DNA of 10,563 nucleotides from Bacillota bacterium (GTDB taxonomy: Bacteria > Bacillota > Sulfobacillia > Sulfobacillales > Sulfobacillaceae). The stretch covers positions 1 through 10,563 of the forward strand of contig JAMCTO010000187.1 in NCBI GenBank assembly GCA_023381095.1, given 5' to 3'. Positions 5,490-6,868 of this stretch are shown here, piece after piece (within the stretch, counting starts at the first letter, position 1; each line of letters starts with the position of its first letter). The notes beneath the pieces were generated by a model. It saw nothing but the letters and a program-made list of their open reading frames with translations, ran no database searches and had not been told where the DNA came from. The position numbers were made by a program, and so were the translations under genes.

Positions 5490-5563
5490 GGAGATCCCCT
5501 TCTTCGGTTCATTTGCCTTATTGTACCATCTCATGCGTTAAGGCCATAGGGCGGCACCGATTA

Positions 5564-5652
5564 GGTTGGCCGCGGCACCACAACGTGCCCGCTTACCGCT
5601 GCTCCCTTCCGGGCCTGACGGGGTTCACAGGTGTTGTCCGCGCGGGACCCAA
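5564..5652 (-). ncRNA. ffs: Small bacterial signal recognition particle RNA (4.5S-type)
   Basis: On the minus strand the segment contains the near-invariant SRP RNA core: GTCAGG, then a CCGGAAGG tetraloop hairpin, then AGCAGCGGTAAG. This is the domain IV hairpin that binds Ffh, with the GGAA tetraloop. The flanks can pair into the basal stem (GGTCCCGCG... against ...CCGCGGCC). The size of about 90-100 nt points to the short form without an Alu domain, rather than the long Bacillus scRNA. Position between tRNA-Ser and dnaX is the same as for scr in B. subtilis. The ends are estimated from base pairing, within about 5 nt. It probably shares a transcript with the two upstream tRNA-Ser genes. Confidence 0.93.
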
Positions 5653-5680
5653 TCGATGCTGCTCCACGGCCTCATCGAAG

Positions 5681-5773
5681 TGGCGGAGGAGGAGGGATTC
5701 GAACCCTCGAGGCAGGTTCAGCCCACCAACACGCTTTCCAGGCGTGCGCCTTAAACCGCTCGGCCACCCCTCC
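5681..5773 (-). tRNA. tRNA-Ser (anticodon GGA)
   Basis: Minus-strand class II tRNA of 93 nt with the CCA encoded. Acceptor GGAGGGG pairs with CTCCTCC, the anticodon loop reads CTGGAAA (anticodon GGA, codons UCU/UCC), a long variable arm is present, and the T arm is GAGGG-TTCGAAT-CCCTC. It lies about 28 nt before the SRP RNA and 16 nt after the other tRNA-Ser. Confidence 0.96.
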
Positions 5774-5789
5774 GCGTTTAACGCTTGTA

Positions 5790-5883
5790 TGGCGGAGAGG
5801 GTGGGATTCGAACCCACGAGACGGGGTTAAACCGCCTACCCGATTTCGAGTCGGGCTCCTTCGACCAACTCAGACACCTCTCC
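5790..5883 (-). tRNA. tRNA-Ser (anticodon CGA)
   Basis: Minus-strand class II tRNA of 94 nt with the CCA encoded. The acceptor begins GGAGAGG, the anticodon loop reads CTCGAAA (anticodon CGA, codon UCG), and the T arm is GTGGG-TTCGAAT-CCCAC with a long variable arm. It is the first RNA gene of the tRNA-Ser/tRNA-Ser/SRP RNA string, with a TATAAT promoter just upstream. Confidence 0.96.
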
Positions 5884-6378: not shown

Positions 6379-6454
6379 TGGTGCGCCCGGGAGGACTCGA
6401 ACCACCGACACAAGGTTTAGGAAACCTCTGCTCTATCCCCTGAGCTACGGGCGC
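6379..6454 (-). tRNA. tRNA-Arg (anticodon CCT)
   Basis: Minus-strand tRNA of 76 nt with the CCA encoded. Acceptor GCGCCCG pairs with CGGGCGC, the D arm is GCTC...GAGC, the anticodon loop is TTCCTAA (anticodon CCT, codon AGG), and the T loop is TTCGAGT. The T stem GGTGG/CCTCC has a central T-T mismatch. It is transcribed toward tadA. Confidence 0.95.
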
Positions 6455-6577: not shown

Positions 6578-6583
6578 TATAAT
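6578..6583 (+). promoter_or_regulatory. -10 box of the glutaredoxin-like gene promoter
   Basis: A perfect TATAAT lies 39 nt upstream of the ATG at 6623. At 16-18 nt upstream the sequence (around GGTCTC) is a poor -35, so the promoter may be weak or rely on an activator. Transcription would begin near 6590, leaving an A-rich leader with the Shine-Dalgarno AAAGGAG at 6608-6614. Confidence 0.5.
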
Positions 6584-6622
6584 GGGGACTAAAATCCTCT
6601 AAAATTTAAAGGAGCGAATCGC

Positions 6623-6868
6623 ATGCCAAGAGTGGTGGTTTATACCCAAACTGGGTGACACGCGTGTGAAGAAGAGAAGGCGTGGCTTTCTCATCGCGGT
6701 ACCTCATTTGAAGAACGAAATATTCGTCGCAATGTGTCGTGGATTGATGATGTCATCAATCTTGGCTCGCAGTCAACTCCTACGACGGTCATCTCTCAAG
6801 ACGACGGTTCTACCCAGGTTGTGGTCGGCTTTCAAAGGCCTGCGCTGGAAGAAGCGTTGAAAAAATAG
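6623..6868 (+). CDS. Glutaredoxin-like selenoprotein candidate (UxxC, in-frame TGA)
   Basis: The product is 81 residues when TGA is read as selenocysteine. It is a small cytosolic thiol-redox protein of the glutaredoxin/NrdH-like thioredoxin fold: first strand RVVVYTQTG (3-11), redox motif U12-H13-A14-C15, helix EEEKAWLSHRG (16-26), strand SFEERNI (28-34), the cis-proline segment STPTTVI with Pro53 (51-57), the VVVGF stretch (66-70) and a last helix PALEEALKK. TGA (6656-6658) stands exactly where family members have the first catalytic Cys, while the resolving Cys15 is kept. AAAGGAG lies 8 nt before the ATG, the reading frame on both sides is intact, and a SECIS-like hairpin follows. None of the well-supported neighbouring genes ends in TGA or has an in-frame TGA, so a general recoding is not indicated. 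Alternatives are a recent nonsense mutation or a base error (TGC/TGT to TGA). It is divergent from tRNA-Arg/tadA and convergent with the hydrolase gene. It stops with TAG. Confidence 0.78.
6674..6692 (+). promoter_or_regulatory. Bacterial SECIS-like hairpin
   Basis: GAGAAGG-CGTGG-CTTTCTC forms a 7-bp stem (one G-T pair) with a 5-nt loop. The loop starts 22 nt after the TGA and has G at its second position. Known bacterial SECIS elements lie immediately downstream of the UGA, inside the coding region, with the apical loop at about 16-37 nt and a G in the first two loop bases; this hairpin meets these rules. Binding by SelB is inferred. Confidence 0.6.

Follow-up and report, generated by a model that had tools for sequence, protein, structure and literature searches.

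An in-frame UGA and a covarying hairpin point to a selenocysteine glutaredoxin in Sulfobacillus and its relatives

The stretch of DNA analyzed here, called the window, is the 10,563-nucleotide contig JAMCTO010000187.1 (C187) of the Sulfobacillaceae assembly GCA_023381095.1 (bin G000; 1.7 Mb in 326 contigs, 63.67% complete). Its plus strand carries an 81-codon glutaredoxin (Grx) frame at 6623–6868 that is interrupted by a single TGA. The TGA is codon 12 (6656–6658), at the first redox position, in the context Y-T-Q-T-G-U-H-A-C, where U stands for selenocysteine (Sec). The translation reads MPRVVVYTQTG-U-HACEEEKAWLSHRG...LEEALKK and ends at TAG. A first-pass annotation, made from the sequence alone, had described a glutaredoxin-like frame broken only at its first redox cysteine, with the second cysteine kept; the description and its coordinates were confirmed. 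It had also reported a Shine–Dalgarno sequence, which is present, and a −10 box. The hexamer TATAAT is there, but a consensus promoter scan of the plus strand returned no −35/−10 pair, so this part of the description is weak. The Grx gene is real and probably functional, and Sec is very probably what its UGA encodes. Judged from the comparisons below, it almost certainly encodes a selenoprotein glutaredoxin (Grx/NrdH/YruB-like), with Sec inserted at codon 12 by way of SelB and a hairpin.

The window protein passes the gathering cut-off of the Pfam family Glutaredoxin PF00462 (27 vs 22.9 bits). Its UHAC motif has the C/UxxC form of the active site, and both positions (C/U and C) are invariant in 20 aligned rows. 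A model computed by AlphaFold2 with 20 family members, C replacing U, predicts a redoxin fold with a predicted local distance difference test score (pLDDT) of 96.3. The predicted elements are E3–8, H13–24, E30–33, H39–46, E54–58, E64–68 and H72–80 (E, strand; H, helix), and the active site lies at the N-terminal end of helix 1. All 20 members scanned match the NCBIfam models TIGR02196, TIGR02194 and NF041212 at E ≤ 1. The window protein reached the curated cut-off in none of the 15 NCBIfam families listed; it scored 51 of 88.55 bits for TIGR02196 (GlrX_YruB), 40.5 of 85.75 for TIGR02194 (GlrX_NrdH) and 38.8 of 66 for NF041212 (Uxx_star). Between the window frame and its counterpart in genome G003 there are 22 synonymous and 7 nonsynonymous changes, a nonsynonymous-to-synonymous rate ratio (dN/dS) of 0.07. 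By this measure the frame is under purifying selection.

The G003 copy is the nearest, at 90% identity. The same sequence occurs in PXYW01000030.1, which is labelled Sulfobacillus benefaciens isolate AMDSBA4. According to PMC4378227, AMDSBA4 has no cultured representative and the S. benefaciens strain is AMDSBA1. The species label of this record is therefore doubtful. Some match to the window protein was found in 48 of the 61 genomes searched, own genome included; the weak ones may be other redoxins. We fetched the best match of each of 30 genomes, and beyond these only two further matches (G016:C120 and G002:C6) were read. The first redox codon is TGA in 25 of the 30 fetched loci (24 of 29 with the window set aside) and TGC or TGT in five. 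A scan of named genomes gave 49 loci, 29 with TGA and 20 with TGC/TGT, many of them the same genes as the fetched loci; since one of its two peptide patterns requires Cys at the redox position, the scan overstates the share of Cys forms. Together these two overlapping collections hold 79 rows (54 TGA, 13 TGT, 12 TGC), and the codon is always UGA or Cys. Comparison of homologues at residue 12 had been proposed in the first-pass annotation as a check, and every row is in keeping with it. Removal of 20 between-collection duplicates and two identical 60-mers (L160, L174) leaves 57 non-redundant rows, of which 39, the window among them, have TGA and 18 have TGC/TGT. The TGA forms come from Sulfobacillus and related Bacillota metagenome-assembled genomes (MAGs); a small number of records bear the labels Rubrobacter, Chloroflexi, Clostridia, Actinomycetes and Acidobacteria.

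A hairpin at 6674–6692 (GAGAAGG-CGTGG-CTTTCTC), absent from the first-pass annotation, follows the UGA. A C:G pair closes the GUG apical loop, which makes 8 pairs in total, and the loop lies 22–23 nt past the UGA. The 19-nt hairpin has a folding energy of −8.5 kcal mol−1 (z −3.11), and none of 200 shuffles was as good. It agrees with the rules given for bacterial Sec insertion sequence (SECIS) elements in PMC13188914. The 57 non-redundant rows align without gaps over 60 nt from the UGA/Cys codon. In the 39 UGA rows, 90.1% of the cells are paired, 20 cells are compensatory and the covariation score is 0.302, each equalled in 0 of 500 shuffles; partners slid out of register pair in at most 58.2%. 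One pair, 23:33, is seen as AU, CG, GC, UA and UG. The 18 Cys rows are 50.0% paired, no excess over their shuffles (86 of 500).

Recoding that preserves the protein separates the two forms in the same way. The UGA rows have 6.31 of 7 pairs vs 4.22 on recoding (standard deviation 0.137; 0 of 2000), while the Cys rows have 3.50 vs 3.20 (120 of 2000). For the window sequence alone the count was 36 of 5000. Within the hairpin, codons +6 and +8 of the UGA rows have a synonymous diversity of just 0.20 and 0.06, respectively; the other codons that could be compared more than a few times range from 0.34 to 0.77. On these alignments, the hairpin goes with UGA: nearly every UGA form retains it, whereas in most Cys forms it has eroded. 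One exception is L017, the Cys-form gene from S. thermotolerans, with 6 of the 7 pairs left. A sequencing or assembly error at 6656–6658 is conceivable in a bin as fragmentary as this one, with its 326 contigs, but is exceedingly unlikely, as the identical TGA stands in the AMDSBA4 contig and in many other assemblies and the hairpin tracks the UGA forms.

The machinery for Sec is present in the genus. Counted over curated cut-offs, selB was found in 47 of 61 genomes, selA in 33 of 42 and selD in 35 of 42; all 35 selD genes have one in-frame TGA. Matches to the tRNA-Sec model over its cut-off occur in 31 of 43 genomes, and in at least one of them, G009, the best match is a tRNA-Cys(GCA). ARAGORN, applied to 30 fetched loci, called tRNA-Sec(UCA) in 28, tRNA-Cys in one and nothing in one that is cut by a contig end. 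The search for sel genes proposed in the first-pass annotation succeeded in the congeners and not in the bin itself: congener G004 has selA, selB, selD and tRNA-Sec (L054), G002 and G003 have the three protein genes, and G001 has selB and selD. Published work also documents Sec use in the genus: S. thermotolerans has a peroxiredoxin, PrxU, that contains Sec (PMC7409299). In G007 and G016, where none of selA, selB and selD exceeded its cut-off, the fetched Grx copies carry Cys codons; G010 and G018 have Cys-form Grx although selA and selB are present. Decoding of the UGA as Sec, claimed at first from one sequence, is now supported by the UGA/Cys alternation in 79 of 79 rows, the covarying hairpin, the sel genes of the congeners and purifying selection.

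Several observations weigh against this reading. The structure was drawn from the same, related sequences on which it was tested, which favours the hairpin, and two weaker covariation measures were less clear (pairs changed on both sides, 37 of 500 shuffles; further pair types, 14 of 500). Codon +10, also within the hairpin, has a synonymous diversity of 0.55, which is not low. Longer single-sequence folds were unremarkable (45 nt, z −1.00, 33 of 200 shuffles; 42 nt, z −1.36, 20 of 200). One UGA row, L165 from an Acidobacteria MAG, has no hairpin in the same register, and five others (L040, L041, L151, L157, L159) keep 4 or 5 of the 7 pairs. The own bin, at 63.67% completeness, yielded no selA, selB, selD or tRNA-Sec over cut-off. 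A genome devoid of sel genes had been named in the first-pass annotation as a refuting sign; taken literally, this holds for the bin but not for the genus. The chance of missing all four is about 1.7% from completeness, if they are independent, and about 12% by size (1.7 of about 4.1 Mb). In G004, the selA row shows one internal TAA. G036 carries a UGA copy, yet selA was unmatched there and no tRNA-Sec exceeded the cut-off; selA was likewise unmatched in G021, and in G023 no selB exceeded the cut-off. In G016, whose bin is without the sel genes, a second contig (L213/L137, G016:C120) holds an intact UGA-form Grx with the full hairpin. Congener G001 (71% complete) gave no match to the window protein. 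In congener G002 the copy (L212, G002:C6:7663–7827) is decayed: the motif is URAG, the second Cys is lost and the frame is shortened.

The decayed G002 copy and the missing sel genes of the own bin are what a decaying pseudogene, with the TGA as a true stop, would lead one to expect. Breakage elsewhere in homologues had been named at the outset as a sign against Sec; it is seen in the G002 copy, whereas the frame stays open past the UGA in the window and in the remaining UGA copies fetched. We regard a pseudogene as very improbable, since the same TGA codon recurs in 24 of 29 other fetched loci, dN/dS is low across the whole frame, the hairpin covaries and the fold is predicted with confidence.

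Some of the gaps in the machinery coincide with contig ends. In G004, G018 and G037, a cysK-like gene stands right before tRNA-Sec. The G003 contig ends within its cysK-like gene (5853 of 5854; one internal TAG), and that of G023 ends shortly past it, its final bases resembling by eye the start of a tRNA-Sec. As both contigs end at or near the tRNA-Sec site, the tRNA-Sec missing from these two genomes was probably lost to an assembly break. The absences in G001, G002, G010 and G036 are not accounted for in this way. Contigs end at or near tRNA-Sec in G003, G023, G022 and G037, perhaps owing to repeats or inserted elements. The loci behind the cysK-like neighbour and these contig ends are L054, L178, L180, L177, L179 and L071. 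The UGA contig of G016 (L137) has a coverage of 3.05 and the Cys-form contig (L134) one of 2.23, and by eye the motif of the UGA copy looks most like that in G030, which belongs to another genus. We treated this contig as a probable contaminant.

A tRNA-Cys with the shape of tRNA-Sec is encoded in the own genome at C53:685–781 (L004/L219). It has the anticodon GCA, a U before CCA and, by eye, a long acceptor stem. It is the own bin's best match to the tRNA-Sec model, falls below the cut-off and was rejected as the decoder of UGA. In G020, G029, G025 and G012, a tRNA-Cys of this type immediately follows the Grx gene. At 76 bits or more, such tRNAs occur in 12 of 41 genomes, always with the anticodon GCA. 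They resemble the selC* tRNA-Cys of a review (PMC7609411), in which some selC* tRNA-Cys from elsewhere have a UCA anticodon. This likeness and the position beside Grx in four relatives would suit a reading of the UGA as cysteine, not selenocysteine, by a SelC-like tRNA-Cys of the selC* type. Such a reading is very unlikely: the anticodon is GCA in all 12, and in G025 and G029, and GCA reads UGC/UGU, not UGA; the genus also has selA and a true tRNA-Sec(UCA). As a long shot, the tRNA-Cys(GCA) may be functionally coupled to Grx, with SelB and the SECIS element or its remnant delivering Cys-tRNA at UGC/UGU in the Cys forms. The four relatives with the adjoining tRNA-Cys include S. thermotolerans, with its Cys-form Grx and 6 of 7 hairpin pairs. 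If true, such a cysteine route through the Sec machinery would explain the Sec/Cys interchange in the clade.

Selenocysteine at UGA is also suggested by two other genes of the own genome. At C205:4698–5066 (L202), a PrxU-type gene has the UGA at the catalytic position (PLAFTPGU), and PxxxTxxU is the pattern of peroxiredoxin selenoproteins (PMC13188914). The frame at C68:322–684 (L203) is peroxiredoxin-like and contains UPYC; its 7-bp hairpin lies at almost the same distance. Both UGA codons are retained in G002, G003 and G004. Downstream of the UGA in the PrxU-like gene, a scripted search detected no perfect hairpin, either in the own genome or in the four relatives examined. Counting Grx, at least three genes of this species therefore have an apparent Sec codon at the catalytic position. 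Reassignment of UGA as a sense codon throughout the genome would fit the nine main frames of the window, none of which ends in TGA (7 TAA, 2 TAG). In the own-genome DNA examined, however, TGA ends 5 of 16 open frames of at least 200 codons, some of which may not be genes; one of the frames ending in TGA, the 482-residue frame of L004, appears to be a conserved gene. UGA is therefore not reassigned wholesale, and we rejected this explanation as vanishingly unlikely.

For the Sec-containing enzyme, we propose the following sequence of events. The hairpin, starting 15 nt after the UGA, would hold SelB-GTP with Sec-tRNA-Sec during translation, so that selenocysteine would be inserted at codon 12. 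The Sec selenolate would then react with disulfides or with partner proteins in oxidised form, giving a mixed selenenyl-sulfide for Cys15 to resolve. Electrons may come from glutathione, from a different low-molecular-weight thiol or from thioredoxin reductase.

The coordinates of the gene and its signals are collected in Table 1. A small signal recognition particle RNA, two tRNA-Ser and a tRNA-Arg(CCU) lie on the minus strand upstream of the Grx gene (5556–5883, 6379–6454). The two tRNA-Ser and the tRNA-Arg hold the same place in the loci of relatives (L013–L016).

Table 1. Features of the Grx locus in the window (window coordinates), and the related tRNA-Cys in four other loci (coordinates of each locus).
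Feature	Position	Strand	Basis
UxxC glutaredoxin-like selenoprotein gene (predicted), 81 residues and TAG stop	6623..6868	+	frame, Pfam, homologues, selection, predicted fold
In-frame UGA, putative selenocysteine codon 12, first redox position of UHAC	6656..6658	+	translation, comparison
TGT, predicted resolving Cys15 of UxxC	6665..6667	+	sequence; invariant in 20-row alignment
Shine–Dalgarno AAAGGAG, 8 nt ahead of ATG	6608..6614	+	read directly
TATAAT, −10-like hexamer	6578..6583	+	read directly; weak, without matching −35
Candidate bacterial SECIS hairpin, arms 6674–6680/6686–6692, loop CGUGG 6681–6685	6674..6692	+	covariation, recoding, fold
tRNA-Sec-shaped tRNA-Cys in relatives	L015 1864–1956; L016 1864–1956; L017 1369–1459; L018 1201–1291		

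The Grx gene is under-annotated, and automatic annotation missed the Sec reading. A protein database search matched two proteins, a 55-residue 'glutaredoxin family protein' of AMDSBA4 and a 67-residue relative, both of which start after the UGA. The prediction that a gene finder would truncate the gene thus came true in the nearest relative's copy, and in at least one public record this Grx is present just as a fragment. Literature searches covering titles and abstract openings returned no paper on a Sec-glutaredoxin in the Sulfobacillus group. The present analysis contributes the SECIS element, the spread of the gene within the clade, the alternation of UGA and Cys together with the erosion of the SECIS element, and the annotation gap. 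A redox selenoprotein would thereby be added to the acidophiles of mine drainage and bioleaching, across Sulfobacillus and its relatives. The UGA and Cys versions, side by side in one clade, form a natural series for the study of selenocysteine gain and loss.

The UxxC kind of Sec-glutaredoxin is itself already known (PMC13188914, PMC9312934), as the first-pass annotation had said of UxxC selenoproteins. The Grx UxxC selenoprotein family, rated experimentally verified in a review (PMC13188914), shares with the window gene the Pfam domain PF00462, the UxxC motif and a SECIS element inside the coding region. The closest fold, found with Foldseek, is that of the thioredoxin-like protein BC3987 (PDB ID: 3zij; template modeling (TM) score 0.81), but its motif is CxxC, with Cys instead of Sec. 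Among the closest characterized relatives is cGrx1 of Clostridium oremlandii (PDB IDs: 7c10 and 7c12), a small glutaredoxin with a U(or C)PxC motif. It matches the window protein in sequence (E 1.9e-6 with the single protein, 2.3e-13 with the family profile) and in fold (TM score 0.80). The native cGrx1 has a catalytic selenocysteine, and the selenoprotein cMsrA is its proposed reduction target (PMC7642778). The two proteins share about one third identity in the structural alignment; cGrx1 belongs to another lineage and has UPxC where the window protein has UHAC.
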